Shown here: piece by piece, positions 4,176 to 40,955 of the stretch
Layout: every line of letters starts with the position of its first letter
How positions within the stretch are numbered: the stretch's first letter is position 1
Source of the DNA: a virus
Length of the DNA: 64,000 nucleotides
Virus record (IMG/VR): IMGVR_UViG_3300045256_000135
Coordinates: 119,245-183,244 of that record
Strand: one strand, 5' to 3'
Translations under genes and position numbers: made by a program
The notes under the pieces: generated by a model
What the model was told of the DNA's origin: nothing
Database searches by the model: none
The model's input: only the letters and a program-made list of their open reading frames with translations

Positions 4176-4176
4176 G

Positions 4177-22586: not shown

Positions 22587-22614
22587 TTGATTTGAGGCGA
22601 AACATCTTTATGAT
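22587..22614 (+). promoter_or_regulatory. Early-type promoter, copy 1
   Basis: The -35 is TTGATT and the -10 is TATGAT, with a 16-nt spacer. It is preceded by TTCATCGAGCTCC, which is shared with other copies. The predicted start of transcription falls at or next to the ATG at 22622, giving the lipoprotein mRNA a leader of at most about 12 nt. Confidence 0.75.
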
Positions 22615-22633
22615 GAACGTTATGGAGGCCACG

Positions 22634-23242
22634 ATGAAAAAGATCGCAGTACTAGTTGGCCTGCTTAGCGTTTCTGCCTGTACGGCGGACGTGTTTAGCA
22701 GCCCGTGTTCAGAGACCACTTGCACGCCGTCGGAAGAGATTCCGCCCGATGCGAAACTGATCGACGGTTCGCCAGTCCCTCAAGACTACGTTCCGAATTT
22801 CCGTTCAGTGAACGGGTGCAAGGTATGGCACGACTATCGCTATCTAGCGCCGCAAGGTTCTGGAGCGTCTGTCAAGCTGGATTGGGTTCTGCCCCAAAGT
22901 CAACGCTGCGTAATCATCATGTCGGCCACTCTGGTGAAGTTCGTTGGAGCTACCGCTACTAACCAGGTACTTCTCGGAGGTGGTGATCTGGATCCGCAAC
23001 AGTTCCCGATTAAGTTCTTCGAGTATCAAACGGACGATGTTGGCAACCCATTTCAGTGGGTCAGCTTCACGGGTGGGTACCCTGGGGTGTTTGGGTTCGT
23101 CAATCCAAACAACAAGGCAGTTTCTGGTGCAGTGATGGTCTGCATGGGAGATCAGTGGAGCTGGGATGGCCCATGCTACTGCAACCCCGAGCCGTCTGGC
23201 AAGATCACTCACGCTGCCTGCAATCCGGTCGTTGCGAAGTAA
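22634..23242 (+). CDS. Predicted phage lipoprotein
   Basis: A 202-residue protein. MKKIAVLVGLLSVSAC is a clear lipoprotein signal: basic start, hydrophobic core, and a V-S-A-C lipobox with Cys16. The mature part has several Cys (CSETTC, then a C-terminal CYC), suggesting disulfides in the periplasm. GGAGG lies 5 nt before the ATG at 22634, but an in-frame ATG at 22622 coincides with the promoter's predicted start site and could also be used. A role in superinfection exclusion or envelope alteration is plausible for a phage lipoprotein under an early promoter, but this is inference. Confidence 0.75.
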   Translation: MKKIAVLVGLLSVSACTADVFSSPCSETTCTPSEEIPPDAKLIDGSPVPQDYVPNFRSVNGCKVWHDYRYLAPQGSGASVKLDWVLPQSQRCVIIMSATLVKFVGATATNQVLLGGGDLDPQQFPIKFFEYQTDDVGNPFQWVSFTGGYPGVFGFVNPNNKAVSGAVMVCMGDQWSWDGPCYCNPEPSGKITHAACNPVVAK

Positions 23243-23262
23243 GCTGAATCGGATTTCGCTCC

Positions 23263-23290
23263 TTGATTTCACGCCAATCATTATTATGAT
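23263..23290 (+). promoter_or_regulatory. Early-type promoter, copy 2 (leaderless geometry)
   Basis: TTGATT, 16-nt spacer, TATGAT, then the 6 nt CATTGT and the ATG at 23297. The A of the ATG is where transcription should begin. Flanks CAAT and ATTG give a partial dyad over the -10. Confidence 0.8.
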
Positions 23291-23296
23291 CATTGT

Positions 23297-23713
23297 ATGA
23301 CCATCAGAGGATTCCATTTCTCAGACGAGTTGATTGACGCTATCTCAAAACGTTCGATCTCGATGTCGATTGGATGGGAGATAGTTAGCGAGACGAAGAA
23401 TGGATCTGTCCATTATCTCGGGAAGAGGACCCTGCGTAAATCGGTCGCGTCTGAGTTCGGGGTTTGGTATATCGACCCGACGACAAAGAAGCGTAAGTTG
23501 GTCTACGTTATGGTAAAGATTAGCGAATATGCCAATGGGGTGATGCTCCATCTCTACCATGAGATGTTGAATGCCGATCCCGCCACCGAGTGGGCGTTGG
23601 GAGAAACCAAGAGCCAGATCTCGGCTTTGATCTCTGAGTTCGGGAAGAAGATTGAGCCTCGCCAACCCGGTGAGCCTCGGAAGAACCTGGAAGGAGTTTC
23701 GTTCAAATGGTAA
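23297..23713 (+). CDS. Hypothetical early protein, probably leaderless mRNA
   Basis: A 138-residue, Lys/Arg-rich alpha/beta protein without a recognised domain. No Shine-Dalgarno can precede this ATG if transcription begins at it, and no better downstream start exists. It shares 7 nt with the next gene's start, so the downstream gene is probably translated by coupling. The function is unknown. Confidence 0.7.
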   Translation: MTIRGFHFSDELIDAISKRSISMSIGWEIVSETKNGSVHYLGKRTLRKSVASEFGVWYIDPTTKKRKLVYVMVKISEYANGVMLHLYHEMLNADPATEWALGETKSQISALISEFGKKIEPRQPGEPRKNLEGVSFKW

Positions 23714-24066
23714 ACCAAAGCTGCATCTCTTGCGGTGGGGATGGGAAGATTCAGAACGCAGCTGGAAACCGAGCAACGTGTCCGATGTGCCGTGGATCGG
23801 GGCTTGCTGGTGCGTTCGACGGATGGGGCGTTCGTGATGTAACCAAAACCAAAACTCGGAAGCCGAACAAGGTTGTTCGGCCAGAACGTCCGAAGGCTCC
23901 GACGACTGTTGGTGGTGAAGCACTAGCGACTCTCGTTCAGAACGCAGTGCTTTCAGCCGAAACGAAAGCAAAGCTGGTAAATAGCATCATCGATTTTGAA
24001 ATCGAAAAGGGCTCCATTACCGAGACCTTCCGCAAGAAGCTGATGAAGCAGATTCGAGGAAAATGA
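23707..24066 (+). CDS. DnaJ-type zinc-finger-like small protein
   Basis: A 119-residue protein. Two motifs, CISCGGDG (residues 6-13) and CPMCRGSG (about 25-32), match the CxxCxGxG repeats of the DnaJ central zinc domain, giving one probable zinc site. The rest is basic and helical (TETFRKKLMKQIRGK at the end). There is no J domain. It overlaps both neighbours. A role in binding unfolded protein or nucleic acid is possible. Confidence 0.65.
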   Translation: MVNQSCISCGGDGKIQNAAGNRATCPMCRGSGLAGAFDGWGVRDVTKTKTRKPNKVVRPERPKAPTTVGGEALATLVQNAVLSAETKAKLVNSIIDFEIEKGSITETFRKKLMKQIRGK

Positions 24067-24671
24067 CGTTCCAACCTCTCGATCTCCAAACGTACATCGC
24101 CAAGCGGCTGGATCAGGAGCTGAACTTCGATAAGAGTTCTGAGCTTGATCAGTGTCTCTACATTCGCGATAAACTCGCCCAACCACTTGGCTACCAGCAG
24201 ATCTACCAAGGTCAGAAAGAAGGCGAGTTGGCCCGCTATGGCAGATCGGAGTCTGCAACTGCCTCTGCCAGAGTCATTTCGGAACATCGATCAAAAAGCT
24301 GTACGCTACCAGTCGTTGATATCATACACGATTCTGGTCTGACTCTGACCGTTCGTCAGAACTTCTACAACTGGAAGCTGTCAGTGGTATCCCCGAAGCA
24401 TCTGTCAGAGCATCTGTCAGAGCATCTGTTTGATGGGCTCTGTCACACCACCCCACCGGTGGATCCGGAATATACGGGTAACCCGCTGAACCCAGTGTAC
24501 TTCGAGGGTTTCCCTAGTGACAAGATCTATGGGTACTTTTCGCAGGATCGATCTCGATTCTCCCTGGAGCTTTGGCAACTCGACGGGATTCAGATTGCAC
24601 TGTTTCTGATCATGCGAGAGCTTGGGCTTCGTCCGGCTCTGATCTGGTCAAGTCGTAAGAAGGAGACGTGA
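24063..24671 (+). CDS. Hypothetical early protein with short tandem repeat
   Basis: A 202-residue protein with no family recognised. A 12-nt unit (AGCATCTGTCAG) is present in two perfect copies and one degenerate copy at 24397-24432, encoding SEHLSEHLF. Translation overlaps the zinc-finger gene by ATGA. The amino-acid repeat is in frame and looks like replication slippage. Confidence 0.6.
   Translation: MTFQPLDLQTYIAKRLDQELNFDKSSELDQCLYIRDKLAQPLGYQQIYQGQKEGELARYGRSESATASARVISEHRSKSCTLPVVDIIHDSGLTLTVRQNFYNWKLSVVSPKHLSEHLSEHLFDGLCHTTPPVDPEYTGNPLNPVYFEGFPSDKIYGYFSQDRSRFSLELWQLDGIQIALFLIMRELGLRPALIWSSRKKET
24397..24432 (+). repeat. 12-nt in-frame tandem repeat (3 copies)
   Basis: AGCATCTGTCAG occurs twice perfectly and a third time as AGCATCTGTTTG. 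It lies within a coding region and keeps the frame. Confidence 0.85.
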
Positions 24672-24689
24672 AATATTTCATCGTGCTCC

Positions 24690-24717
24690 TTGATTTCGCA
24701 ACGATCATTATTATGAT
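24690..24717 (+). promoter_or_regulatory. Early-type promoter, copy 3 (with leader)
   Basis: TTGATT, 16-nt spacer and TATGAT as in the other copies, but the triplet at the predicted start site is ATA (24724), not ATG. The gene instead uses an ATG 38 nt downstream with AAAGGAAAAG before it. This copy shows that the conserved block is a promoter in its own right and not part of a coding repeat. Confidence 0.8.
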
Positions 24718-24761
24718 CATTGTATAAGGGAAGTAGGATCCCTCAACAAAAGGAAAAGACA

Positions 24762-25013
24762 ATGACGACGGAAATGATGACTGAGGCCCAGACGACGGAG
24801 ACGACGGAGACGACGGAGACGACGGAGACGGTGGAAAAGAAGCAGCGGAAGTCTCCGACTCCGAAGAAAGTGGCTTGCGGAAAGTGCGGGACCGTTCGGA
24901 ACTCTCAGGCGATGCGCGCCTCGGTGGATCCGAACGGGGTTCGGTCGTACGAGTGCAAGAAGTGCCCAACCGAGCCGGTTGGTGCTGATGCTCAGGTGAA
25001 GGTGGCAGAATGA
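24762..25013 (+). CDS. Zinc-ribbon-like protein with Thr-Thr-Glu repeat
   Basis: An 83-residue protein. Residues 10-24 are a TTE repeat, coded by a 9-nt tandem repeat, then a Lys-rich linker, then CGKCG and CKKC separated by about 23 residues, a typical four-Cys zinc ribbon. AAAGGAAAAG upstream serves as ribosome-binding site. It overlaps the ADP-ribosylglycohydrolase start by ATGA, so the two are co-translated. The function is unknown; a nucleic-acid or protein contact is likely. Confidence 0.7.
   Translation: MTTEMMTEAQTTETTETTETTETVEKKQRKSPTPKKVACGKCGTVRNSQAMRASVDPNGVRSYECKKCPTEPVGADAQVKVAE
24791..24835 (+). repeat. 9-nt tandem repeat (4 perfect plus 1 degenerate)
   Basis: GACGACGGA is repeated four times, then GACGGTGGA. 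It is in frame and encodes the Thr/Glu tract. It is expected to be length-variable by slippage. Confidence 0.9.
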
Positions 25014-25945
25014 TGCCAGAGAAAAGGGGAACGTTCCGGGTTGATCGCGCTCTCGGCGTTTTCCTCGGAGGAGCACTCGGAGATGCACTGGGTGCTCCAT
25101 ACGAATTCAAGTCTCGCTCGCTTGATCCAGTACCACTCCATATGAACGGTGGTGGGTCTTTCAATTGGAGAGAGGGTGAGACGACGGACGATACTGAGAT
25201 GGCGATGGGGGTCGCCAAGATGTATCTGCAAACGAACGGACTGTACAGCGAGCAAGAGCTGAAAGCTAACTGGCTCGCCTGGATTGACACTCATCCAAGA
25301 GACGTTGGGGCTTGGACCCGGCACGCAATGGGTGGTCTTCGTCGCGGTCAGCATCCAAAGCAGTTGTGGCAAGCAGCTGGTAGGAAAGATGCTGGTAACG
25401 GTGGCGTGATGAGGGCTTGGGTGACGCCATTGGTTCGGAGAACGTGGAAACAAATCGAGCGCGATACGGTTCGAATCTGCGAATTGTCTCACCCCGATCC
25501 GCGTTGTGTAGCAAGCTGCATTGCAGTCCATTCAGCGATCCACGAAATGATCGCCGGGCGGAACAACTTACGAGCCATCGTAACGAAAGCAGCTATCCGA
25601 GCACGGGAATACAGCGAAGAAACTTCTGATGCAGTGGTGTCAGCTCTAGTGACTAAGCCACTGGAGTTCCACAACTCGGGGTACACGGTTGGAACTGTTC
25701 ACAGTGCATTCACTGCGCTGGTTACGACTCAGTCGTACGAAGATTGCCTCCGAGCGGTCTGCCAAGTCGGAAACGACGCTGACTCTGTCGGAGCGGTTGC
25801 TGGCGCACTAGCTGGTGCGTATTACGGCTACACTGAGATCCCCAAAGAGCTTGTATCGAAGCTTCGCGGGTCTGGTTCGTGGTATCATTTCACCGAAGTG
25901 GACTACCTTCGAACGGCGATTCGTCTTCTCTCCATTCGCAACTAA
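25010..25945 (+). CDS. ADP-ribosylglycohydrolase (DraG/ARH family)
   Basis: A 311-residue protein, the usual length for the family, which removes ADP-ribose from modified macromolecules using a two-metal site. Visible motifs in order: GGALGDALGAPYEF (residues about 19-32), TDDTEMA (about 62-68, metal-binding), GNGGVMRAW (about 130-138), SHPDPR (about 160), and the C-terminal GNDADSVGAVAGALAGAYYG (about 263-282, second metal-binding cluster). All key acidic residues are present, so it should be active. Co-translated with the zinc-ribbon protein upstream. In a phage it may reverse ADP-ribosylation by a host toxin; the substrate is not known. Confidence 0.88.
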   Translation: MMPEKRGTFRVDRALGVFLGGALGDALGAPYEFKSRSLDPVPLHMNGGGSFNWREGETTDDTEMAMGVAKMYLQTNGLYSEQELKANWLAWIDTHPRDVGAWTRHAMGGLRRGQHPKQLWQAAGRKDAGNGGVMRAWVTPLVRRTWKQIERDTVRICELSHPDPRCVASCIAVHSAIHEMIAGRNNLRAIVTKAAIRAREYSEETSDAVVSALVTKPLEFHNSGYTVGTVHSAFTALVTTQSYEDCLRAVCQVGNDADSVGAVAGALAGAYYGYTEIPKELVSKLRGSGSWYHFTEVDYLRTAIRLLSIRN

Positions 25946-25962
25946 TTCATCGAGCCCCAATT

Positions 25963-26259
25963 ATGGCAAGTTACAAACAGTTCATGGATCGCTACGCTCT
26001 TGTTCTTGAAGCTTGCGTCCGCCGACTGCAACATCTCAAAGGCAAGTTTGCAACTCGTAGGGAGCTTGCTCAATGGGTCGCAGGCGATCTGCCTACCCTG
26101 TATGCCAAGACGTTCTGCAACGGACGTGAGCGTAGTTCCGAGAAGCTCCACGTGAAGGTGTGGCGGGTCCAGCAGATGCTTTCGACTGCCGTGTTCCTCG
26201 GAGCGGTTCGTGGTAAGGGGATGCAGTCAGTCATCCGAGTGGTTCGGAAAGCTGGGTGA
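25963..26259 (+). CDS. Hypothetical basic early protein
   Basis: A 98-residue, Lys/Arg-rich helical protein. The ATG at 25963 is preferred over an ORF extending back into the preceding gene. Just upstream lies TTCATCGAGC (25946-25955), the 5' flank of the early promoters without its -35/-10. The composition suggests nucleic-acid binding; no family is recognised. Confidence 0.6.
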   Translation: MASYKQFMDRYALVLEACVRRLQHLKGKFATRRELAQWVAGDLPTLYAKTFCNGRERSSEKLHVKVWRVQQMLSTAVFLGAVRGKGMQSVIRVVRKAG

Positions 26260-26287
26260 TCTCTTAGCACAATCTTGTTCGAGCTCC

Positions 26288-26315
26288 TTGATTTCTCTAC
26301 AATCATCATTATGAT
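26288..26315 (+). promoter_or_regulatory. Early-type promoter, copy 4 (leaderless geometry)
   Basis: TTGATT, 16-nt spacer, TATGAT, CATTGT, then the ATG at 26322. Nearly identical to copies 2 and 6. Confidence 0.8.
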
Positions 26316-26321
26316 CATTGT

Positions 26322-26518
26322 ATGGAACAATCCAAGTATATCGAATCTCTCCGGTTCGTTCGAAAAGACGATCAAAAGGTTTCACTGTAACGAATTACGG
26401 GCACTGGACCGACATTGTTTCGCCTGATGGTGAGACAGATCGGGTGAAGTGGTTCGGTCCAGAAGAGTTCGGTTACGTTGGGGTCCAGGGTAACGTCTAC
26501 AACAAGGTGGAGGTGTAA
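26322..26518 (+). pseudogene. Small early gene with apparent -1 frameshift
   Basis: The ATG placed by the promoter opens a 22-codon frame that stops at 26388-26390. The -1 frame continues without a stop to 26518 and encodes a well-formed segment (GFTVTNYGHWTDIVSPDG...). Joining the frames at the A-run 26374-26377 would give a protein of about 65 residues. Options are a programmed -1 slip on AAAAG, a one-base loss in the homopolymer (real or a sequencing error), or use of a TTG start at 26318. It is listed as a pseudogene only because the intact frame is not continuous. The product is unknown. Confidence 0.55.
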
Positions 26519-26519
26519 C

Positions 26520-26903
26520 ATGGCTGGTCTGATTAAGGGCTCGCAGCAGACGAAGTTGACGAAAGAGGGCCTGTCGCCTTATAAGCGCCCAGTCCTTCAG
26601 AAGCTGCTGGAAACCGCGGTTCGAGACACTATCAAGCAGCTGGGAATTACCCGGGAGCAACGCGATCAGCATCGAGTGTATCGAGCGCTGATCCGAATGT
26701 CGGCTCGAATCGCTCTGTTCATGGGTTACAGTCTTTCCGAGCACTTGGTGCTCGTAACCGAGCTGTACGAGAAGTGCCGACTCGAATTCGAAGCCCAGCA
26801 AAAGTCACTTCCGGCGAGCAAGGTGACGTTCCAGAACGCTGTGTTGAGTTCCGAGCACTTGAAGGAGCTGCTCCAAGCAGAGACGAAGAAGCTGGGGAAG
26901 TGA
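26520..26903 (+). CDS. Hypothetical helical early protein
   Basis: A 127-residue, strongly helical protein with many Leu and charged residues; the last 40 residues may form a coiled coil. GGAGG lies 5 nt before the ATG at 26520. Its stop overlaps the next start (TGATG). No family is recognised. Confidence 0.65.
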   Translation: MAGLIKGSQQTKLTKEGLSPYKRPVLQKLLETAVRDTIKQLGITREQRDQHRVYRALIRMSARIALFMGYSLSEHLVLVTELYEKCRLEFEAQQKSLPASKVTFQNAVLSSEHLKELLQAETKKLGK

Positions 26904-27304
26904 TGGTTGATTTCGACAAGTTTGCGGGTGGTTATCGAGATCAGCCAGTGGTTGTTCGCGAGCTCGACAAACCCATCCCGTGGTATCGCAGGTTTCTTAG
27001 CACTCTCGCTGCCAGGTTGCAAAGTCCCTGGTCAGCGTTTAAGGCAGTGCTACGTATGGGGCTGTGGTATAACCATAAAGGGTTGTTTGTGGCTCCGCCT
27101 ATGCCACCGATGTCTCTGTGGAGTAATCCGCGAATCTTTCGGAAGAGGCAAGCCCAGCTTAAACAAGAGCTGCAAGAGATGCGATTGTCGATCAAATCGC
27201 TTAACGCGATCAATGACGAATTCCTTCGTGGGATCTCTAGCAGTCGTGTGAAAACAGTGGAACGCATTCAGGAGCGTATTCGTGAGCAACGAAAGCGTCG
27301 TTAA
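26903..27304 (+). CDS. Hypothetical basic early protein
   Basis: A 133-residue protein. A central hydrophobic, Pro-rich stretch (GLFVAPPMPPMSLW) is followed by a basic coiled-coil-like C-terminus (QELQEMRLSIKSLNAINDEF, ending EQRKRR). The start is set by the TGATG overlap with the previous gene, and its end overlaps the PolX start by 23 nt. The function is unknown. Confidence 0.6.
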   Translation: MVDFDKFAGGYRDQPVVVRELDKPIPWYRRFLSTLAARLQSPWSAFKAVLRMGLWYNHKGLFVAPPMPPMSLWSNPRIFRKRQAQLKQELQEMRLSIKSLNAINDEFLRGISSSRVKTVERIQERIREQRKRR

Positions 27305-28370
27305 GCATCTCCAAGAGATTGCAGAGCTTCTGTTCCTTGCAAAAGAGGATCAGCGAGGCTATGCGTACGCTAAGGCCGCGAATAGTATCAAGGCTTCTGA
27401 GAAGTTGGTCACGCCAGCAATCAAGCCAGGAGAGCTGAAGTACGTTGGACCGTCCATTGTTGCTGTAGTTCTCGAGTTTCTCGAAACCGGTACGAGTAGC
27501 ACTTTCGAGAAGCTTTCTTCGACCGTGGAACGCCCACCTGCCGATATTAGCGCTGAGCTACAGAAGATCCAAGGGGTTGGTCCGGTGAAGGCCATGACCT
27601 TGTGGAAAGCAGGATTCAAAACCATTGCCGACGTGGAAGCCGCGTTAGCATCCGGAGCTCTAAAAGACGAGCGTCTCAAGAAGTCTGTGGAGTACGCTAA
27701 AAACCAATCTGAGCGGATTCCGTTCCACAAGGCATATAGTTTAGCTGCACCGATCCTCGACAAGGTAAAGTCGATCTGTACCAGCGATGGTCGTAGTCTT
27801 ATCCAGGAAGCAGAGTACGCTGGCTCCCTCCGTCGAAGAAAAGAGACGGTAAAGGACATCGACATCCTATGCTCGATCGCTACAGATTGGGACCGAAATC
27901 TAGTTCGGGAGCACATCAAGACGTTCTGGCCGAACGATATCATTGCTGATGGTGTGAGTCGAACTCGGCTTCGGATTACCGATCGCCAGTGTGATATCAT
28001 CTACACGCAGCCGAACACGTGGGGAGCTGCACTTCAGTATCTGACTGGCAGTGCTGATTTCAACGTTCGACTACGTGCCTATGCAAAGACGCTGCATTTC
28101 AAGGTAAGCGAGTACCAGCTTCTCCGCTACCCCGGAACGCCACATGAAGAGAAGCACGATGTCCCATCTGAGCAAGCGTTGTTTGAGAAGCTTGGGATCT
28201 GGTATGTCGAGCCCCATGATCGCGAAGGAGTTCGAAACCTCGAGCTAGCTATCGCTCTGAAGGAGATGCGTCAAGTGCCGGATATGACGTTCGACAAGGC
28301 AATCTGGCTTCGAACGAATCTAGGTATATGTACTCCAGCGGAGCTGAAAGCTCACCAGGAATCGACATGA
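27282..28370 (+). CDS. Family X DNA polymerase (Pol beta-like)
   Basis: A 362-residue protein with a GTG start preceded by AGGAG. Residues about 10-60 are the 8-kDa-like helical domain; a helix-hairpin-helix (IQGVGPVKAMTLW, about 93-105) binds DNA. The nucleotidyltransferase signature AGSLRRRKETVKDIDIL (about 181-197) carries the two metal-binding Asp (D.D), followed by the thumb (TGSADFNVRLRAYAK, then GIWYVEPHDREG). It lacks the C-terminal PHP domain of bacterial PolX, so it resembles eukaryotic and viral forms. These enzymes fill short gaps in repair. It belongs to the same operon as the 5' exonuclease and ligase, which could form a base-excision-type repair set. Confidence 0.88.
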   Translation: MSNESVVKHLQEIAELLFLAKEDQRGYAYAKAANSIKASEKLVTPAIKPGELKYVGPSIVAVVLEFLETGTSSTFEKLSSTVERPPADISAELQKIQGVGPVKAMTLWKAGFKTIADVEAALASGALKDERLKKSVEYAKNQSERIPFHKAYSLAAPILDKVKSICTSDGRSLIQEAEYAGSLRRRKETVKDIDILCSIATDWDRNLVREHIKTFWPNDIIADGVSRTRLRITDRQCDIIYTQPNTWGAALQYLTGSADFNVRLRAYAKTLHFKVSEYQLLRYPGTPHEEKHDVPSEQALFEKLGIWYVEPHDREGVRNLELAIALKEMRQVPDMTFDKAIWLRTNLGICTPAELKAHQEST

Positions 28371-28552
28371 CTAAGTCAGAGAAGACGTGTCTCAATTGCT
28401 TGCATCGGTGCATGGATATGGATATGGATCCGTATTGCTCTGCTGTTAACCAGCCTTGGGGGTTGGTTTTGCGTCAGGGCAAACCAGAAGACTGCGGATC
28501 AGAGTCCAAACTATGGGAGAAGGATACACGTGGGAACAGTCCTGCTGGTTGA
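28367..28552 (+). CDS. Small Cys-rich protein
   Basis: A 61-residue protein with CLNCLHRC and later Cys residues (PYC, DC), a possible zinc site, and a DMDMD tract coded by GATATG-type repeats. It overlaps the PolX stop by ATGA and the 5' exonuclease start by 23 nt. The function is unknown. Confidence 0.6.
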   Translation: MTKSEKTCLNCLHRCMDMDMDPYCSAVNQPWGLVLRQGKPEDCGSESKLWEKDTRGNSPAG

Positions 28553-29495
28553 CGGTAATCCGCTCGTATGGCGGAGCGTGGACATCTACAAGAATCTCAG
28601 AACGAAGACCGGAAAAGCTACAGGAGCTATCTACGGAGCGTTCGAGATTCTCTTTAGAGCAATCGACCACGTAAAGCCAGACTCGATCGTAGTGACGTGG
28701 GATGTTGGTAAGTCTCGGTGGCGAAGGGCCTTGTCTCCAGACTATAAAGCCTCTAGAGAGGCGAGGAAGCCGAACGACGGTGGGTTGCCGTTTGAAGAGA
28801 TCATCCCTCAGTTCAGTGACATTCAGAGGCTGCTTATGCTCGCCGGGATTCCGCAGTTTGGGATCCAAGGTGTTGAAGCCGACGATCTCATTGGTTTGCT
28901 AGCATCCGGCTTAGCAAAAAGTCAATCACATGACATTGTGATCTTGTCGTCTGATGGAGATCTCAATCAGCTGCTCTCAGAGAAAGTCCGTCAGTATGAC
29001 TCAGTTGGGAAACGGTGGGTTGACCTTGAGAAGGTCAAAGAGGTCTACAATGGTCTCACTCCAGCTCAGCTAATTGAGCTGAAAGCAATTACAGGTGATG
29101 GTGGTGATGACATTAAGGGTGTGAAGGGTATCGGCCCTTCCGGAGCTCACAAGCTGTTGACGACTTTTGGCTCTTTGGATGCGTGCTTGGATGATGCGAA
29201 CCAAGCTCAGATCTCAAGTCTTGGGAAACGCCTTGCTGCATTTACCGAGGCTAGGGATACGGTCAAGCTTGCTCGGAAGCTTGTGACCATCACCACCGTT
29301 GATAACTACAAAGAGTTCTTGTCTGCTGAAGAGATTGCTGTTTTCGTAACACTCCTCAGAACGAAAGTTGAGCCAAATCGTTTCAGCTTTTCGCAGGTTG
29401 CAGATTCCCTTGAGCTCGAGCGGGTGAATCGACGGGCGGGCTTGCTTTTTGTCCCTAGTCCGGAATTAGAGCAGGTTTCGCAATGGTTTATGTAG
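28530..29495 (+). CDS. 5'-3' exonuclease / flap endonuclease (FEN family)
   Basis: A 321-residue protein with a GTG start. Motifs of the T5 D15/Pol I 5'-nuclease family are in order: LLVDGNPLVWR (Asp8 region), VVTWDVGKSRWRR, YKASR, GVEADDLIG (acidic cluster), LSSDGDLNQLL, and the helix-3-turn-helix ITGDGGDDIKGVKGIGPSGAHKLL. All metal-binding Asp are present. It would remove RNA primers and flaps; the phage Pol I at 56072 lacks this domain, so this separate protein supplies it. Confidence 0.92.
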   Translation: MGTVLLVDGNPLVWRSVDIYKNLRTKTGKATGAIYGAFEILFRAIDHVKPDSIVVTWDVGKSRWRRALSPDYKASREARKPNDGGLPFEEIIPQFSDIQRLLMLAGIPQFGIQGVEADDLIGLLASGLAKSQSHDIVILSSDGDLNQLLSEKVRQYDSVGKRWVDLEKVKEVYNGLTPAQLIELKAITGDGGDDIKGVKGIGPSGAHKLLTTFGSLDACLDDANQAQISSLGKRLAAFTEARDTVKLARKLVTITTVDNYKEFLSAEEIAVFVTLLRTKVEPNRFSFSQVADSLELERVNRRAGLLFVPSPELEQVSQWFM

Positions 29496-29845: not shown

Positions 29846-30120
29846 AGACCTGGTGGGTGTACATCATCCAAAACCAGAAGGGAGTGCTCTACACGGGGAT
29901 CACCACCGAGTGTAGTACTAGGATTAGTGCGCATAACAATGGATGTGGAGCAAAGTTTACCCGTGGTAAAGGGCCGTGGCACCTGGTTGCCTCACTAGAG
30001 GTACCAACTAGATCAGAAGCCTCCAAAATTGAGGCAGCTATCAAAAAGCTTCCCAAAGACAAGAAGGTTGTTGAATTACTTCTCAGAAGAGACTTGATTT
30101 CGCGAAATACATCATTATGA
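29842..30120 (+). CDS. GIY-YIG domain protein (YhbQ/UvrC-N type)
   Basis: A 92-residue single-domain protein with a GTG start overlapping the previous stop. Motifs: WWVYIIQN (GIY-equivalent), VLYTGITTE (YIG-equivalent), the conserved Arg of TRISAHNNG, FTRGKGPWHLV, and a Glu-containing helix SEASKIEAAIKKLPK. This matches the stand-alone YhbQ-like group rather than intron homing enzymes. It is probably a structure-specific nuclease in repair. The next promoter lies inside its last codons. Confidence 0.85.
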   Translation: MKTWWVYIIQNQKGVLYTGITTECSTRISAHNNGCGAKFTRGKGPWHLVASLEVPTRSEASKIEAAIKKLPKDKKVVELLLRRDLISRNTSL

Positions 30121-30121
30121 T
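30094..30121 (+). promoter_or_regulatory. Early-type promoter, copy 5 (inside GIY-YIG gene)
   Basis: TTGATT, 16-nt spacer, TATGAT, TGTTGT, ATG at 30128. This copy lacks the upstream GAGCTCC flank because it is embedded in coding sequence, yet keeps the -35, spacer length, -10 and 6-nt distance. Confidence 0.75.
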
Positions 30122-30127: not shown

Positions 30128-30406
30128 ATGAGCACTCTCCAAGCGTTTCGATTGAACCCGGCAATTCTCGAGTTCGAGTTTCAAGAAACCGACACCACGT
30201 TTCTGGGGGAGAAGCGCCAGTTACTGTACACGCTCATCGGATCAAATGACGCGATGACTCGAGGGCATGCGGTAGAGATTTACATCGACGATGGCTCTAT
30301 CCACGTTATGGACATCAAGCAAGGGCGAGAGGTTGAGTCGAGGCCTTGGAGTCTTGACACTCTCGGAAACCTGCTTGAGAAGTATAAAGCCAAGGATCAG
30401 CCCTGA
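30128..30406 (+). CDS. Hypothetical early protein, probably leaderless
   Basis: A 92-residue beta-rich acidic protein (VEIYIDDGSIHVMDI). The ATG lies exactly where the promoter should start transcription, and there is no alternative start nearby. No family is recognised. Confidence 0.65.
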   Translation: MSTLQAFRLNPAILEFEFQETDTTFLGEKRQLLYTLIGSNDAMTRGHAVEIYIDDGSIHVMDIKQGREVESRPWSLDTLGNLLEKYKAKDQP

Positions 30407-30432: not shown

Positions 30433-30460
30433 TTGATTTCTCGTACATCATCATTATGAT
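30433..30460 (+). promoter_or_regulatory. Early-type promoter, copy 6 (leaderless geometry)
   Basis: TTGATT, 16-nt spacer, TATGAT, CATTGT, ATG at 30467, with the full TCATCGAGCTCC flank upstream. Confidence 0.8.
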
Positions 30461-30466: not shown

Positions 30467-30670
30467 ATGAGCTACTCCAAATTCAATGAAGAGTTTGCCA
30501 ACGCCAAGACGCGTAAAGCGAAACAGACACTGCTGGAGTCAGTTTCGAAGGGTGATTTCGGAGCCCAGGTCAAATCCTCGATCTTTGGCCTGGGGGATTT
30601 TGATCCTAACCACGATCTGACTCGAGAGCGCCTGGCCGAGATCAAGAACGCTCAATTCGGAGATCACTGA
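30467..30670 (+). CDS. Hypothetical early protein, probably leaderless
   Basis: A 67-residue, highly charged helical protein without recognised motifs. The ATG coincides with the predicted +1. It overlaps the following membrane micro-protein gene by one base. Confidence 0.6.
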   Translation: MSYSKFNEEFANAKTRKAKQTLLESVSKGDFGAQVKSSIFGLGDFDPNHDLTRERLAEIKNAQFGDH

Positions 30671-33623: not shown

Positions 33624-35444
33624 ATGCCTATTGATCTCGATGTGACACCGGATGGCTCAAAACTGATTGTCTGGTTGGTTGATCCACGTTTTACCAACCA
33701 GATGAACCTTTTGCTATCATCTCTGCTGACGAGTCAGTTAGATCGCGTTCACGATCAGTGGTTGGTAACTTGGAGCGACTTCAAGCAACTCCGCGTAAAG
33801 ATGGACCAACTGGGTCTCACAGAAGGACGTTCAGCCACACAAGCTGCAGTCTCTTGGATCGCGGATCAGGAAGCTAGAGACGTTGAGGTGGAGTCGATCA
33901 AAGAGGGGAAACAAAACCATCTTGTCCATCTCCCAAAGACGGTTGTAACTAAACCGTACGAAGATCAGATCACCGGGATTCGATTTCTCACGGCTATACC
34001 TTTCGCTGTTCTGGCTGATGAGATGGGTATCGGCAAGACCCTTCAGATCCTAAGCGCCTTCGCTGTGCTCAAGTCGAAAGGCGAAGCGAAGCACATGCTG
34101 GTGATCGCACCCAACAGTGTCAAAACTGGATGGGTCAAAGAGGTTAACAAGCACACCACGTTGACAGTATCCGCCCTCGGAAACGGCTCAGTACAGTTGG
34201 AGCAGGACTTCGACAAGTACAAAAAGAAGCGAACTGATGTGTTGGTTGTGCATTACGATGCACTTTCCAGTACGAAGACGAAGCACAACCGGCGACGTCT
34301 ACCGTACTCTCATCTGGTTGAAGAGGCTCTAAAGCTTCCCTGGGACTTCATCGTGTTTGATGAAGCACATCAAGTCAAGTCTCTAGAAACGAAGCGAGGT
34401 CAAGCTTCATTGCACCTTGCAGCAAACGCTAAGACTGACAAGAAGACTAGAGCCAGATTGTGCTTAGCCACCGGCACGCCAGTTTCAGAAAGCCCGATGG
34501 ATGCATGGTCAGTGCTAAACTTCATCGACAAGAGCCAATTACCAAAGACTTACAACAAGTTCGAGAACTATTTCACCATCAAAGTTCGAAAAGAGATGGG
34601 TGGTCGCGTATGGGGTGAGACAACAGGCTACAAAAACCTGGGCGAACTGAAACAGCTACTTCAACGCTCGATGATCCGTCGACTGAAAGTGGACATCAAA
34701 GGGATGCCAGAGAAAGTATCGCAGTTTCGCTATCTTCAGATGACTGGAGCTCAACAGCAACTGTACAACGACATCAAGCGTGGTCTGTACGATACAATCG
34801 AGCAGGACCCAAACAACAAGCTTTCGATCGCCTTTGCTATGACAAAGTGCATCAGATTGAGGCAGGCTCTGAATCACCCCTCGCTTGTTGAAAAAGAGGG
34901 AGAGAGTGCTAAGTATCAGATTGTGGATGAGATTCTGGACGAGGTGCTCACTGACCCAATGTCCAAAGTTGTACTCTGGACAGAGTTTAGAGCAGCTGCA
35001 GACTTGCTGGTTGAACGGTACGAGAAGAAGTATGGCTGCATCAAGCTAGTCGGTGGTACTTCACAAGAGCAGCTGAGCTACTGGTCCAAGAATTTCGACC
35101 ATATGCCTCAGCGCGTTGCAGTTGGTATCCCGCTGTTTGGTGGCACTGGTGTTGACTTCTTGAGTCGGTGCCGAACCGCGATCTACCTAGAGCCACCCTA
35201 CAGTCTGATTACTTTCAGGCAGTCTTGTGATCGCATCCATCGCAGAGTTGGCACAGGTAACGACCCGATCGAAGTGATCAAGCGATCTCCAGCCAACCTC
35301 ATCTTCTTGCAAGTTGAGAAGTCCATCGATGAGCTGTGCTACAAACTGCTAGCACGAAAAGGCGACATGGTCGATCTACTGCTTACCAGCGACGAGAAAC
35401 TTGAGCAGATGGGCAAGACAGAGCTCCTAGAGTACCTCAAGTAA
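33624..35444 (+). CDS. SNF2-family DNA helicase / translocase
   Basis: A 606-residue superfamily 2 helicase. Motif I LADEMGIGKT (residues about 130-140), motif II VFDEAHQVKS (about 245), motif III ATGTPVSESPMD, and C-terminal RecA-fold motifs GIPLFGGTGVDFLS and the arginine-finger motif QSCDRIHRRVG. The phage members are related to T4 UvsW-type branch-migration and restart helicases. A role in recombination-dependent replication is likely. The -10 hexamer lies 6 nt before the start. Confidence 0.9.
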   Translation: MPIDLDVTPDGSKLIVWLVDPRFTNQMNLLLSSLLTSQLDRVHDQWLVTWSDFKQLRVKMDQLGLTEGRSATQAAVSWIADQEARDVEVESIKEGKQNHLVHLPKTVVTKPYEDQITGIRFLTAIPFAVLADEMGIGKTLQILSAFAVLKSKGEAKHMLVIAPNSVKTGWVKEVNKHTTLTVSALGNGSVQLEQDFDKYKKKRTDVLVVHYDALSSTKTKHNRRRLPYSHLVEEALKLPWDFIVFDEAHQVKSLETKRGQASLHLAANAKTDKKTRARLCLATGTPVSESPMDAWSVLNFIDKSQLPKTYNKFENYFTIKVRKEMGGRVWGETTGYKNLGELKQLLQRSMIRRLKVDIKGMPEKVSQFRYLQMTGAQQQLYNDIKRGLYDTIEQDPNNKLSIAFAMTKCIRLRQALNHPSLVEKEGESAKYQIVDEILDEVLTDPMSKVVLWTEFRAAADLLVERYEKKYGCIKLVGGTSQEQLSYWSKNFDHMPQRVAVGIPLFGGTGVDFLSRCRTAIYLEPPYSLITFRQSCDRIHRRVGTGNDPIEVIKRSPANLIFLQVEKSIDELCYKLLARKGDMVDLLLTSDEKLEQMGKTELLEYLK

Positions 35445-35653
35445 CCCTGCTCTACCATGTCTTTCCCACATCTAGCTATCTAAGCTAATGCACATGACGA
35501 GTCTAATGATACGTCAAAGAGCCAAGAATCTCCGGAGTTTAAACGAGCAGCTTGATGACGAGGAGCATTGTACGTTGGATGCACGCTTGGCTTGAACTAC
35601 TCATGCACAGTATTTACCGTACACTGTCTCTGACTGCTGGTCGACAGCTGCAC

Positions 35654-35673
35654 AAGGGTGTATATACACCCTT
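35654..35673 (+). repeat. Perfect 20-bp palindrome
   Basis: AAGGGTGTAT joined directly to its reverse complement ATACACCCTT. The following CATCTTTTATT gives only a weak U-run, so a terminator is possible but a protein-binding dyad fits better, because the dyad has no loop. Confidence 0.6.
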
Positions 35674-35723
35674 CATCTTTTATTCTCTAAACTAGTCTTT
35701 TTCTTCTAGTCTATGATTCTTAG

Positions 35724-35747
35724 CTAAGAGACTAAGAGACTAAGAGC
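35724..35747 (+). repeat. 8-nt direct repeats (CTAAGAGA x2 plus CTAAGAGC)
   Basis: Three adjacent iteron-like copies overlapping the right arm of the TCTTAGCTAAGA palindrome. No coding frame covers them. Confidence 0.7.
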
Positions 35748-35917
35748 TAGATGATCATTTGGACCTGCAAAAACCAAAACCGGAGATTGTCGATCCGTTG
35801 GCCGAAAAGAGTTCGGTGGTTCTCTACAGTAGACTAAACTGAGAACAGTAGGTAAATCAACTCTGTCGATCCGAGTAGTCAATTCTTGGAGTCGACAACA
35901 TAGCCACGTAGGGAACG

Positions 35918-37162
35918 ATGGGACTAAAGCCTCGAAAGTCACAGGCGCCAGTAGCTGTTGCATCGGATCTTTCACCGGTTTACCCGAAGTTGTCAGAACT
36001 GGGTGAGATCTACACCAAAGCTCGACCGCCGAACTTTCACCGCGTACTCCTTGAGATTGCTCAAGAAGTAGCAGCTTCCGATACGATCAAAGCGAAAAAG
36101 TACGCTCAGATTTCAGACAAAAGTACTTGGGTGTACAAGGTACTGTCTGGAACAGCGGGTCTTCAGCAAGTTGCGTCAACGCTTACGGGGATGGTGCCGA
36201 AGGTTGGCGGACTAGTGAAGCTATTCTCGCATCTTGGCTACACTGACCCGGACGACTACTTGATCCTCGCAGGCAAGTTTCTGTCGAAGCTCATAACGGA
36301 TCCAACGCTTTTCAGAAAGCCACGAAGTTGGTTCACACCGTCTCAGAGCATGAATTCTCAGGGAGGTAAGTACTGGTCCAACCCATTGACTAACTTGGTT
36401 GAATCGGTCTGGTACAGTTACGGTCAGGATCCACAGAGATCACTGGATTTGCTTACTCACACCACAGCTTTGGTGCACGAAGGCAATCTAGTCGAGACAA
36501 GGTTTGACGGGTCAAAAGTGGTTTGGGACTTCACTGTTCTCGCCAAGATAGAGCAGTTCTGCGCTCAGCGAAAGAAGTCTGTCATTGGCGTTCTCCGTTA
36601 TCTGACGGAGAAGTTTCGGTTGAAGAAGCAGTGGATCGATGGACAGCAGTTTGCTAAGCATCCAACGTATTCCCAGCTGTTTTCCGACCTTTGCTTCGAC
36701 ACTGAGACAATTACACGTTTGCCAGACGCAGACCAAGAGTGGAAAGTGGACCTCGCACTTCACTTTGGCATCCCAGGAATGCCAAAGATTCCAAACGAGC
36801 TTTTGTTTGGACTCGATCTGCGTTCGACTGCTATGCTTGACAAAGAGCTGATTGCTATTGCTAAGAATGGCGATCGAGTCTACAAAGACAAAACAGGCAC
36901 AGTTCACTCCGAGGGTCACCCCACGAGTAGAATCCAGCAGGTGGTGAATTGGGGTAAAGCGATTCAGATTTGGGTGAATGAGGGCAACTGGGAAGAGCTG
37001 AGATCTGCTTGGGATTCGCCTCCTGAACGATGCCCGTGGGTTTGGTACGAGAAGTGGGGGAACAAGCTATATCGAGACGATGGCACTGCGATTCATCCCG
37101 ACGCTAAGCTGCGTCCACCGGTTGAGTGGCTGGAGATGTTGAATGCAAAGAAGACTGGATAA
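35918..37162 (+). CDS. Hypothetical replication-region protein
   Basis: A 414-residue, mostly helical protein with no family recognised. It is the first gene after the non-coding gap and overlaps the helicase-loader gene by 20 nt, the usual place for an initiator or replisome accessory protein; that role is inference. It has Trp-rich segments late (WGKAIQIWVNEGNW). AGGGAACG precedes the ATG. Confidence 0.6.
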   Translation: MGLKPRKSQAPVAVASDLSPVYPKLSELGEIYTKARPPNFHRVLLEIAQEVAASDTIKAKKYAQISDKSTWVYKVLSGTAGLQQVASTLTGMVPKVGGLVKLFSHLGYTDPDDYLILAGKFLSKLITDPTLFRKPRSWFTPSQSMNSQGGKYWSNPLTNLVESVWYSYGQDPQRSLDLLTHTTALVHEGNLVETRFDGSKVVWDFTVLAKIEQFCAQRKKSVIGVLRYLTEKFRLKKQWIDGQQFAKHPTYSQLFSDLCFDTETITRLPDADQEWKVDLALHFGIPGMPKIPNELLFGLDLRSTAMLDKELIAIAKNGDRVYKDKTGTVHSEGHPTSRIQQVVNWGKAIQIWVNEGNWEELRSAWDSPPERCPWVWYEKWGNKLYRDDGTAIHPDAKLRPPVEWLEMLNAKKTG

Positions 37163-37955
37163 CGTTGAAGATTGGTGCGCAAGCTGTCCGTTGTGCCAAG
37201 GCAGCATGTTCCTCAGTGCAACTTCGTCAGAGAGATGCCCATGCTGGCGATTGTTTATGTCAACCAACAGGTTGATAGCCTGCGGGTTTCCAAGAGCGTA
37301 CACATTGTTCAACTGGGACAGTATGTGGCCGACGAAACTTCAGACTTCCAAAGAGTGGGAGGCACAGTTTCCAGATTCGTACGCTTGGGAGTTTGACCAA
37401 GAGACAACTGACGAAGAGGCAATTCGTTACTGGGTAGACAATCCTGATCAGGTGCAAACTCGAGGACTTTCGTTGCTTCTGTTCAGTGGCAAAGGGGTGG
37501 GAAAGACTTCGCTCGCTACTACTCTAGCAAAAGAGTATACGAAAAGAGTGGGGGTTGACGATTCCGGTGCCATCGGAAGCTTCACTCCGCGATTCATTGT
37601 AACGGATACTCTGTATGAGCTGATTCTGACGAGATCGTGGCACGGACTCGAGCTGTATCAGAAAGCAATCTCCTCGGATCTGCTGGTTTTGGATGATCTT
37701 CGACTGTCATTCAAAGGGATGGGTGCCAACGACTATTTTGAGCGTTTGCATTCGTGTCTTCAGCATAGGGCTGCAAACAACTTGCCAACGATCATCACTG
37801 TGAACAAGATTGATGATCGCAAAGATTTCCAGGCCAACTGCGTAACAGATTTCTTGGGTGTGCAAGCAGCTGAGCTACCAGACAAGTTTGGTAAGTACAG
37901 ATTTGTTAGGTTGAGCAATACTGCCCTCCGACCAGAGCCTGAGTGGGGAATCTGA
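37143..37955 (+). CDS. AAA+ helicase loader, DnaC-like
   Basis: A 270-residue protein. The N-terminal 35 residues hold Cys12, Cys15, Cys18, Cys32 and Cys34 (CASCPLC...CPC), a possible zinc site. An AAA+ core follows: Walker A FSGKGVGKTS (about 114-123), Walker B LLVLDDLRLS (about 180), and sensor ITVNK. The order loader-DnaB is standard. It would load the replicative helicase on ssDNA. Its stop overlaps the DnaB start by TGATG. Confidence 0.8.
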   Translation: MQRRLDNVEDWCASCPLCQGSMFLSATSSERCPCWRLFMSTNRLIACGFPRAYTLFNWDSMWPTKLQTSKEWEAQFPDSYAWEFDQETTDEEAIRYWVDNPDQVQTRGLSLLLFSGKGVGKTSLATTLAKEYTKRVGVDDSGAIGSFTPRFIVTDTLYELILTRSWHGLELYQKAISSDLLVLDDLRLSFKGMGANDYFERLHSCLQHRAANNLPTIITVNKIDDRKDFQANCVTDFLGVQAAELPDKFGKYRFVRLSNTALRPEPEWGI

Positions 37956-39331
37956 TGGACGTTAAGCCGTTTGCCGATCCAGATCTGGAAGAGACATTCT
38001 TGTCAGCTGTAGCTCAAGGACACGAGTCTGCCAAATCCGTGTTGAGCATCGTTAAACCAGAGCACTTTGACACTCCGACATATCGTTGGTTTCTTGAGGT
38101 TATCAAGCAGCGTTCTGATTCAGTGCCGACGAAAGGCATGCTGATTCAGATCGTTGACGATACGTTTAAGGTGAAAGATGAGCAGGACAAGTACAAGCTG
38201 TCCCTGTCTCGTTTGTATTCGCTGAATATCGAGCAGGGTGCATCTGATGCCGTTTTGACTTACAAGAGGTTCATTTCGCTTCAGCAGACAAGTACAGCTA
38301 TCAAGCGGTTTTACGACGATTACGGCAGAACAAGGAAGCTAGAGTTCGCACTTCGAGATCTCGAACTTGGCTTGGCGGACGCGAAGGAGGCTCTGTCCAC
38401 TAAGCAGCTTCAGGTAGTAGACTTCGCCAAGACATTCAAAGAGCGAGAGGCCGTACGAAAGTACAAGCGAGACAATCCGGATCTGTTCCCTAGGATGCGA
38501 TTCGGTATACCAAAGCTTGATGCACAGTTGAAGTGTGAATTCGGAACAGTAACGCAATTCCTTGCACCAATGAAGCGGTACAAGTCAGTGATCCTAGCCA
38601 CAGGTGCATTCGCTTCTGTATTGCAAGGGTTTAACACTGTTCTAGTCGTTGTTGAGAACTCCATCGAACTGACCATGAATCGGCTGGATTCGATGTTCAC
38701 TTCGATCAATTACGATCGAGTTGTCAACTACTTGAAAGACTCACAAGAGCGAAAGCACGTTGACCAGCTGTTTGAGAAGATCGACAAGTGGCCACAGCGA
38801 CTGAAGGTGATCAAAGGCAATCCGAACGAGCTTACCATCCCCGACTTGGATCGAGAACTACGGAGACTCGAACGAGAAGAGGGGTTCACCGCTGAAGTCA
38901 AAATCATCGATTACTTGAACCTGATGAAGGCGTCTACAGCAGTACAACGTGACAATGACGAGCAAACCGAAATCTGTTGGGATATGCAGAAGTCTGCGAA
39001 GGATCCAAGCAGGCCTTCGATCTTCATCACCGCCTCTCAGGCGAACATGGCTGGCGCAGAGATCGATAAAGACGGAAAGCCGGTGAAGGTTCGTCAGCAC
39101 CACCAAGGAAGATCGATTGGTATTGCTCAGGCTGTAGACAATTCAATCGGTATCGACGTTGAGTATACAAAGGGACAAGATGGTTCAGCTGCTCCGCCGA
39201 ACATTATCTTGAGTCCGTTGTTCTTTAGAGACGGATCGATCATGTACCCCGAGGTTCGTCTAGTTAGCGAAATCGATCGGATGTGTATTGACCGATCGAT
39301 CAACAAGCTCTGGGAAGAAGCAGAGTGGTAA
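37955..39331 (+). CDS. Replicative DnaB-like helicase with degenerate Walker A
   Basis: A 458-residue protein. The N-terminal helical domain (to about residue 110) has DnaB-N character; a linker precedes the RecA-fold core. The Walker A position (about 204-211) reads APMKRYKS: Tyr replaces the usual Gly before Lys-Ser. Walker B is VKIIDYLNLM; the Q/H motif is ITASQANMAGAE; the C-terminal segment RSIGIAQAVDNSIGI matches the DnaB H4 region. The ATG at 37955 is chosen from the TGATG overlap instead of a GTG at 37943. It should unwind the fork; the altered P-loop could affect activity. Confidence 0.8.
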   Translation: MDVKPFADPDLEETFLSAVAQGHESAKSVLSIVKPEHFDTPTYRWFLEVIKQRSDSVPTKGMLIQIVDDTFKVKDEQDKYKLSLSRLYSLNIEQGASDAVLTYKRFISLQQTSTAIKRFYDDYGRTRKLEFALRDLELGLADAKEALSTKQLQVVDFAKTFKEREAVRKYKRDNPDLFPRMRFGIPKLDAQLKCEFGTVTQFLAPMKRYKSVILATGAFASVLQGFNTVLVVVENSIELTMNRLDSMFTSINYDRVVNYLKDSQERKHVDQLFEKIDKWPQRLKVIKGNPNELTIPDLDRELRRLEREEGFTAEVKIIDYLNLMKASTAVQRDNDEQTEICWDMQKSAKDPSRPSIFITASQANMAGAEIDKDGKPVKVRQHHQGRSIGIAQAVDNSIGIDVEYTKGQDGSAAPPNIILSPLFFRDGSIMYPEVRLVSEIDRMCIDRSINKLWEEAEW

Positions 39332-39412
39332 ATACACTCTTTCTCATTCCACGGCTTGTGTACATTATCATCGCTAGCTCTCTTAGCTTTGTAACCTGAA
39401 CGGAGCAGAACA

Positions 39413-40126
39413 ATGACCAAAGCAGCACTCGTAGCGTACGTTCTCAAAGCAATGATGTCTTGGAGTCCGGTGTCTCAGCATACTCCAGCAGAGAAGCAGG
39501 AAGATGCTGAAGCACGGTACAAGTCAATTGCTGAGGACATCGCTGAAGTCGCAATGGATCCGATCGAATCAGTTGCACCAGTGGACCTTAGATCAGTCGA
39601 CGGAAGAGTTTTGGTTCAGTCGAGTGATGCTAAGAATGCAATCCTAGTGGCTGCAGTTGCTAGTCTTGAGACAAATTTCGCAAAGTTTGTCGATGATGGC
39701 ACGTGCAACCAACCAGGGTACAAGCCTGATGCACGAGGTTCGTGCGACGGTCGAAATGCGTGGACGATGTGGCAGTTGCACACAATGGGTGGGATCGTAA
39801 TTCGTGGTGACGAGATTGTGGGTCGTGCCTACGCCACTCCAGAAGAGCTTGCCAATCCATCGCTCTTGTGGACTGGTCCTAAGCTAGTTGCCGATCGGAA
39901 GGGAGCTGCTCGAGTGGCTCTCCACGAGATGCGTTACTCAATGCGGAGAACAAAAACTCTGTGCCTCTACGCAGGTGAGACCGATCGAGAGCATCCCGGT
40001 TCGTGTCGAGTTGTATGCTCGGGATCACCAGAAAAGTGCGTGGTGGCGATTCCGCTGGCAACTGCCAGATTGTCGAGGGCTGTGTCCTACTTGGCACAGA
40101 ATCCAGTTGAAGTGTCGGAGATTTGA
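39413..40126 (+). CDS. Putative lytic transglycosylase / lysis-related protein
   Basis: A 237-residue protein. Residues about 77-130 resemble the catalytic region of SLT-type lytic transglycosylases: a helix with AAVASLETNF (Glu86 as the possible acid) followed by a G...WTMWQLHT segment. The C-terminal part has four Cys (CLY, SC, VC, KC). No signal peptide is evident; the N-terminus has a weakly hydrophobic stretch (ALVAYVLKAMMSW). A lysis or DNA-injection murein enzyme is possible. Confidence in the fold is moderate. Confidence 0.45.
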   Translation: MTKAALVAYVLKAMMSWSPVSQHTPAEKQEDAEARYKSIAEDIAEVAMDPIESVAPVDLRSVDGRVLVQSSDAKNAILVAAVASLETNFAKFVDDGTCNQPGYKPDARGSCDGRNAWTMWQLHTMGGIVIRGDEIVGRAYATPEELANPSLLWTGPKLVADRKGAARVALHEMRYSMRRTKTLCLYAGETDREHPGSCRVVCSGSPEKCVVAIPLATARLSRAVSYLAQNPVEVSEI

Positions 40127-40171
40127 GAAAGTCTCTGGTATATAGACGAACATACGCCCTAAGGAGGCAAT

Positions 40172-40543
40172 ATGTCTGGTAGAGATCAGTTGGTTGTTAA
40201 GGTGAATGAGAAGATCAAGAGTGACCCTGGGCTTGAGTCACTTAAGCCCCAGCACGTTGATCTTCTGTCCGAGGCCATTGTTGAGATGGTCAAGGGTGGA
40301 GATCGTGTCACTCTGCAAGGGTTCGGTTCGTTTTTCCGGCGTCCTCAGGCTGCTCGGGTAGCTCGCAACCCGAAGACTGGTGAGCCGATTCAAGTGTCTG
40401 CTCGGGTCCGATTGGATTTCCAAGCAACAGTGCCTGCTTTCGACCTGACCGACGAAGAGACGGCCAAGCTTGCAAAGGCGGCGGCGAAGGCCGCAGCTCC
40501 CGCTAAGCCAGCGCCTGCTCCCGCCAAGAAGGCCACGAAGTAA
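40172..40543 (+). CDS. HU/IHF-like DNA-binding protein with Ala/Pro/Lys tail
   Basis: A 123-residue protein. The first 92 residues match HU: VVKVNEKIKS, GDRVTLQGFGSFFRR, and the beta-arm region RVARNPKTGEPIQVSA. The C-terminal 30 residues are an Ala/Lys/Pro-rich tail (AKAAAKAAAPAKPAPAPAKK), like tails of some bacterial HU proteins. A strong AAGGAGG lies 6 nt before the ATG and a clear terminator follows, so it is a separate unit. It would bend or compact phage DNA. Confidence 0.9.
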   Translation: MSGRDQLVVKVNEKIKSDPGLESLKPQHVDLLSEAIVEMVKGGDRVTLQGFGSFFRRPQAARVARNPKTGEPIQVSARVRLDFQATVPAFDLTDEETAKLAKAAAKAAAPAKPAPAPAKKATK

Positions 40544-40556
40544 GACTGTTTTCCCC

Positions 40557-40610
40557 AACCCGGAGTTGACTAGGTGCCCCTACCACTGATGTCCTCCGGG
40601 TTGTTTTTTT
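40557..40610 (+). terminator. Rho-independent terminator after HU gene
   Basis: Nine-base perfect arms AACCCGGAG and CTCCGGGTT (40557-40565 and 40594-40602) enclose a 28-nt loop and are followed by GTTTTTTT. The next promoter begins 11 nt downstream. Confidence 0.85.
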
Positions 40611-40620
40611 GAGATTGTAC

Positions 40621-40649
40621 TTGATTTCTTTTGTAGAGATCATTAAGAT
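40621..40649 (+). promoter_or_regulatory. Early-type promoter, copy 7 (diverged)
   Basis: TTGATT, 17-nt spacer, TAAGAT, then the 6 nt AGGTCT and the ATG at 40656. The upstream flank is different (TTGTAC), but the leaderless spacing is kept. Confidence 0.65.
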
Positions 40650-40655
40650 AGGTCT

Positions 40656-40955
40656 ATGGAAGAAGCGAAGATCAGATGCGCCAATGTTCTGAGCCCTGAT
40701 CAGTGCGGAATCAGTACCGGGGTCTGTGAACGCTTGACCGTTGGCCACGGTAGGCTGTCGTTCCACGGGTACTGGGAGTTCCCATGCCTCGCCTGCGCAA
40801 AGCGAATTGGTGCGAACCCAAAGCTGGCTCAATACGGTGTTTGGCCAGCAAGTGAGGAAGAGGCAAAACCAGGCGATCCAGCACTTTATGATGAAGAGGA
40901 TGAGAGGTGGGCATCGTACGGAGATGAGTGCTGGACTGATTTGGAGTTAGACTGA
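40656..40955 (+). CDS. Small Cys-containing protein, probably leaderless
   Basis: A 99-residue protein with CANVLSPDQC and CERL...CLAC, four to five Cys that could form a zinc site, and an acidic C-terminus (YDEEDERW). The ATG matches the predicted +1. The function is unknown. Confidence 0.6.
   Translation: MEEAKIRCANVLSPDQCGISTGVCERLTVGHGRLSFHGYWEFPCLACAKRIGANPKLAQYGVWPASEEEAKPGDPALYDEEDERWASYGDECWTDLELD

Follow-up and report, generated by a model that had tools for sequence, protein, structure and literature searches.

The final 64 kb of a viral record of 183,244 bp (IMGVR_UViG_3300045256_000135) contain several near-identical copies of a promoter-like block, most of which are followed by an ATG at one and the same short distance. 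This raises the question of whether the genes behind these blocks are transcribed from the first base of their own start codons and translated without any leader. The window, i.e., the whole stretch of 64,000 nucleotides that was analyzed, has a GC content of 50.5%, and all called genes are on the + strand. No isolated phage matched the DNA of the phage that carries the window (the window phage); its terminase and tail sheath were most similar to those of Rctr197k, an enrichment-culture record (38% for the terminase and 44% for the sheath).

Probable promoter copies and genes in the window

The block was scanned as TTGATT-N16/17-TA(T/A)GAT and occurred seven times in the window, whereas shuffled sequences contained it 0.10 times on average and never more than once. 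The copies, all on the + strand, are at 22587–22614 (copy 1, TTGATT-16-TATGAT), 23263–23290 (copy 2), 24690–24717 (copy 3), 26288–26315 (copy 4), 30094–30121 (copy 5), 30433–30460 (copy 6), and 40621–40649 (copy 7, TTGATT-17-TAAGAT), exactly where the preliminary description had placed them. Its claim that in five copies precisely 6 nt separate the -10 hexamer from an ATG was also correct: these ATGs are at 23297 (copy 2), 26322 (copy 4), 30128 (copy 5), 30467 (copy 6), and 40656 (copy 7).

Four of the five ATGs open predicted leaderless genes on the + strand, namely 23297–23713 (138 aa, no Pfam match), 30128–30406 (92 aa), 30467–30670 (67 aa), and 40656–40955 (99 aa). The ATG behind copy 4 has the proper spacing, but as a gene it is doubtful, since the frame that it opens (26322–26390, +) is only 22 codons long. 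A longer, protein-like frame at 26318–26518 is in another register than the ATG at 26322 and runs across an AAAA; apparently, this region includes either a frameshift at the A run or else a different start.

The remaining two copies have no ATG at 6 nt, as had also been described. Behind copy 1, the gap is 7 nt, and the ATG reached (22622) shares its frame with a second ATG at 22634, which is preceded by the Shine–Dalgarno (SD) sequence GGAGG (22624–22628) and starts a lipoprotein-like gene with a short leader (22634–23242, +). In copy 3, the place of the ATG at +1 is taken by ATA, followed by an SD (AAGGA, 24750–24754) and the ATG of a gene at 24762–25013 (+). Directly upstream of copy 7 sits a terminator-like stem at 40557–40610 (+; AACCCGGAG / CTCCGGGTT) with a 28-nt loop and a T run; it was read directly from the sequence, and its loop exceeds the limit of the terminator scan.

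The block family across the genome and in a syntenic relative

Extending the search to the rest of the genome brought the number of exact block matches to 17, every one of them on the + (i.e., coding) strand, and neither the reverse strand nor the reversed pattern gave any match throughout the whole 183-kb genome. A near match with TTGATC at genome position 55105 raises the family to 18. The preliminary description had regarded the design as belonging to one phage module, which proved wrong: the copies are spread over 16–61, 86, and 142–160 kb of the genome. The structural genes hold only one of them (85.8 kb), and all the others lie outside. The consensus of the family is CTCCTTGATTTC-N7-8-TCATNATTATGAT-NNTTGT-A(+1), with TTGTA retained at +1 in several copies that have no ATG there. 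Several copies have an identical variable spacer (p about 0.02), and such exact sharing suggests duplication of the unit inside the genome.

A relative, IMGVR_UViG_3300009553_000019 (152,626 bp, GC 42%), is syntenic with the window phage at a protein identity of about 45% (typical range 30–60%). It has 12 clear copies of the block, 11 with the ATG at 6 nt, and its consensus is TTGATT-N-ATCATTATTATGAT-GTTTGT-ATG. This was the one true relative among the results of a loose motif scan of IMG/VR contigs, which returned 116 stretches, nearly all of them single matches apparently due to chance. Further relatives, sought via the terminase, the tail sheath, and a 153-aa structural protein, gave either no motif or only fragments; the motif of a 99.9-kb relative was rejected as a probable coding tandem repeat, judged by the pattern of its copies.

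The family is certain as a sequence pattern, and its spacing is fixed. In the window phage, the ATG stands exactly 6 nt past the -10 in 13 of 18 copies. TATGAT-N6-ATG was found 13 times in this genome (shuffle mean 0.45, maximum 3), and the relative had 10 occurrences (shuffle mean 0.89, maximum 4), while among gaps of 0 to 20 nt between TATGAT and ATG, all except 6 stayed at 3 or fewer. Moreover, an unguided k-mer search for 8-mers at a fixed distance from ATG starts ranked the block first in both genomes. In both phages, the -35/-10 spacer is either 16 or 17 nt and the 6-nt gap to the ATG is constant, as expected if transcription from a sigma70-type promoter always began at one and the same base.

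Apart from conservation, the comparison with the relative revealed orthologs that swapped their modes of starting. There were two such pairs of reciprocal orthologs. The gene at 30128, predicted to be leaderless at +1 in the window phage, has an ortholog in the relative that starts 14 nt further, behind AGGAAG, under the same promoter. Conversely, the gene at 24762 is preceded by a leader of 38 nt with an SD, while at 50705 in the relative, the ATG of the ortholog is at +1. In both phages, a lipoprotein-like gene comes first after the tail genes; the window version is SD-led, whereas that of the relative has a +1 ATG, besides a weak SD-led alternative. Copies without a +1 ATG retain the block, and nearly all of them then continue with an SD-led start. 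The block is thus very likely a promoter, as the preliminary description had concluded from copy 3, with the predicted transcription start on the A of the ATG; the ortholog swaps, the SD-led sister copies, and the conservation at about 45% protein identity, evidence added by the present analysis, all point this way.

Predicted start codons and recognition of the probable promoter

We consider it quite probable, judging from sequence, that the copies are strong promoters for the host's RNA polymerase and its housekeeping (sigma70-type) sigma, that the A of the ATG is +1, and that the resulting messages are leaderless. The host polymerase carrying the housekeeping sigma would recognize the block, and the +1 A would double as the first base of the ATG in 13 of 18 copies in the window phage and 11 of 12 in the relative. 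With the transcription start probably at this A, the mRNA would open with the start codon, and translation would be leaderless, conceivably by 70S ribosomes as the preliminary description had proposed. Most of the other copies would use the same +1, followed by a short leader with an SD and then the start codon.

The distribution of SD sequences is consistent with the likely leaderless reading. When the 30 copies of the window phage and the relative were pooled, an SD-led start of a frame of at least 25 codons followed 5 of the 6 copies without a +1 ATG versus 4 of the 24 copies with it (Fisher p = 0.005). The SDs behind copies without a +1 ATG are AGGAG (genome 16564), AAGGAGG (genome 59598), GGAGG (genome 141831, window 22587), and AAGGA (genome 143934, window 24690) in the window phage and AGGAAG at 59041 in the relative; in most of these copies, the SD and the start codon fall inside about 10–40 nt of +1. 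At the +1 ATG starts, an SD match of at least 4 nt was missing in 12 of 13 cases in the window phage and 10 of 11 in the relative, the remaining two having a match of just 4 nt. Judged by codon usage, frame 0 scored highest as coding sequence for 22 of the 24 ATGs. The exceptions were genome 85815 (32 codons) and position 61053 of the relative, where 7 codons are followed by an SD-led frame of 547 codons; a weak SD-led alternative start is present at 49879 of the relative. Low structure at the 5' end was dropped as support for leaderless starts: it does appear in the relative but not in the window phage, whose values were not lower than at other gene starts. Neither an IF3 C-terminal domain nor an S1 domain, as possible phage-encoded helpers of leaderless translation, was found in the two phages.

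As for timing, expression of these genes would precede that of the structural genes. A Pfam scan of ten leaderless products gave a single match, to a dual-specificity phosphatase; the few Pfam matches and the position of the copies outside the structural genes fit predicted early or middle expression, as far as the gene neighborhood can tell.

The hexamers TTGATT and TATGAT/TAAGAT with a spacer of 16 or 17 nt are within the sigma70-type layout (TTGACA-like and TATAAT-like, 16–18), and 9 of their 12 positions agree with the sigma70 consensus, a level that shuffled sequence also attains. The conserved bases exceed a minimal promoter, including CATNATT and TTGT, whose conservation may reflect the binding of another protein. 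Furthermore, an inverted repeat, ATCAT-N4-ATGAT, overlaps the -10; it occurs 8 times in the window phage and 11 times in the relative, with 8 of 8 and 10 of 11 occurrences, respectively, inside promoter copies. Its near confinement to these copies makes a shared regulator with an operator possible, so that the family might represent the operator-promoters of a phage regulon, bound at the inverted repeat by a phage or host regulator, with the fixed ATG being secondary. The conserved CATNATT, which sigma70 does not need, also favors this alternative, to which we give a modest chance. However, in the window phage the left arm shows weak conservation at its outer bases (10/18 and 11/18), the right arm mostly coincides with the -10, and the locked position of the ATG is left unexplained; leaderless starts would, besides, be compatible with such a regulon.

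It is unlikely that a phage-encoded sigma or another transcription factor reads the promoter instead of the host housekeeping sigma. The relative does encode two sigma factors, at genome 120313 (local 313–921) and 123710 (local 3710–4354), and one protein of the window phage has a sigma region-4-like stretch, weak and below the cut-off, which is conserved in the relative. Nevertheless, no counterparts of the relative's two factors were found above the cut-off in the window phage, and sigma region 2 was not found there either, yet this phage has the motif, which is sigma70-like with the right spacer. As the motif is common to both phages and the relative's sigma factors have no counterpart here, the host housekeeping factor is the simpler reader. 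An RNA polymerase beta-prime domain was found in neither phage, and a search for single-subunit RNA polymerases had no match in the phages, nor in the controls.

Somewhat less likely still are transcription starts a few nucleotides 5' of the ATG, or mixed ones, giving very short leaders with an AU-rich, SD-less end and ordinary binding of the 30S subunit. The choice of start site in bacteria commonly varies over a few bases, and the bases before the ATG are indeed AU-rich (CATTGT and GTTTGT), but 24 of the 30 copies have a gap of exactly 6 nt, and gaps of 5, 7, or 8 almost never occur, as would be expected where the +1 base belongs to the start codon. A purely translational role, in which the repeat would be a start-associated signal in RNA made from upstream promoters, finds a parallel in the start-codon locking of the SAS of cluster K mycobacteriophages (PMC3203893), but is highly improbable, because the copies without a +1 ATG retain the block and have an SD further downstream, -35 and -10 hexamers are present with a 16–17 spacer, and the terminator-like stem lies immediately 5' of copy 7.

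Known systems, novelty, and other features

The preliminary description had called a repeated leaderless design unusual. Leaderless phage genes as such have precedents in lambda cI and phiYS40, whereas the repeated promoter-plus-ATG unit is new. The early promoters of T4 are many near-identical strong copies used by the host sigma70, and T4 early genes have SD leaders. The likeness is that conservation spans -35 to +1; the difference is that the start codon is built into the unit here. The lambda cI mRNA is leaderless (PMC9031893) and is likewise a phage message opening with AUG, but it represents a single gene rather than a unit repeated across the genome. In Thermus phage phiYS40, most middle and late transcripts are reported to be leaderless, and the expression of host IF2/IF3 is altered during infection (PMC3594737). 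The window phage resembles it in having many transcripts predicted to be without leader and SD, and differs in that starts are only predicted, the layout is -35/-10, SD-led sister copies exist, and no IF3 C-terminal domain was found. According to one paper, phage transcripts are often leaderless (PMC5312081). In Deinococcus-Thermus, -10 elements adjoining starts are common, and TANNNT at a required short distance drives leaderless genes (PMC12340547). The short distance from -10 to start codon is shared, but that pattern is genome-wide in bacteria, while the phage copies are near-identical, with the -35 and flanks conserved too. The SAS/ESAS of cluster K are short repeats directly before the starts of many mycobacteriophage genes (PMC3203893); SAS (GGGATAGGAGCCC) has an SD-like look, whereas the element of the window phage is promoter-like, without an SD, and its repeat differs from a GGGATAGGAGCCC-like one before starts. 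Overall, what is new is a near-identical promoter-plus-ATG unit that is distributed through one genome and conserved in a relative, some orthologs having changed between the two modes.

Rctr197k (KX853510.1), a distant relative, repeats another box, TGGCA-N8-GC-TATAAAGTGAGCC-ATG (also TGGCAC-N7-GC). Of this box there are 16 copies, most of which have the start codon 13 nt past the GC. For example, the boxes at record positions 132949, 134242, 134880, and 135998 agree with annotated gene starts at 132977, 134270, 134908, and 136026. The spacing of the GG-N10-GC core resembles the -24/-12 of sigma54; the phages themselves encode no sigma54 domain. We tentatively raise the possibility that promoter and start codon have spread together as a portable unit of ~45 bp, which allows expression of any open frame without a ribosome-binding site, and that locking the start codon to a promoter is a recurring regulatory strategy in this phage lineage. 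Genes would then shift between leaderless and SD-led forms behind the promoter, and Rctr197k would have reached an equal layout on another promoter type.

Leaderless translation is usually credited to the host or to isolated genes; here, it apparently belongs to a repeated unit of one phage. The ortholog pairs with AUG versus an SD leader under the same promoter are natural material that would permit a direct test of what a phage gains from leaderless expression. Moreover, gene callers that depend on SD sequences may place such starts wrongly.

Several other features were seen. At genome 33990–34420, a promoter copy is followed by AGGAGAGAA-ATG-ACT-ACG-TAG, a frame of three codons, past which there is an apparent reverse-strand ORF in a genome otherwise using one strand. 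The product of 25010–25945 has a by-eye likeness to ADP-ribosylglycohydrolases and is kept in the relative at 39% identity. A tmRNA gene is present at 51298–51657 (+; tag ANDNVELSEAAEAA; Rfam RF00023, 79 bits), and a search with it against phage records returned nothing similar. Finally, 49457–51085 encodes a QueC-like protein with a glutamine amidotransferase domain at the N terminus, which suggests 7-deazaguanine chemistry and perhaps DNA modification.
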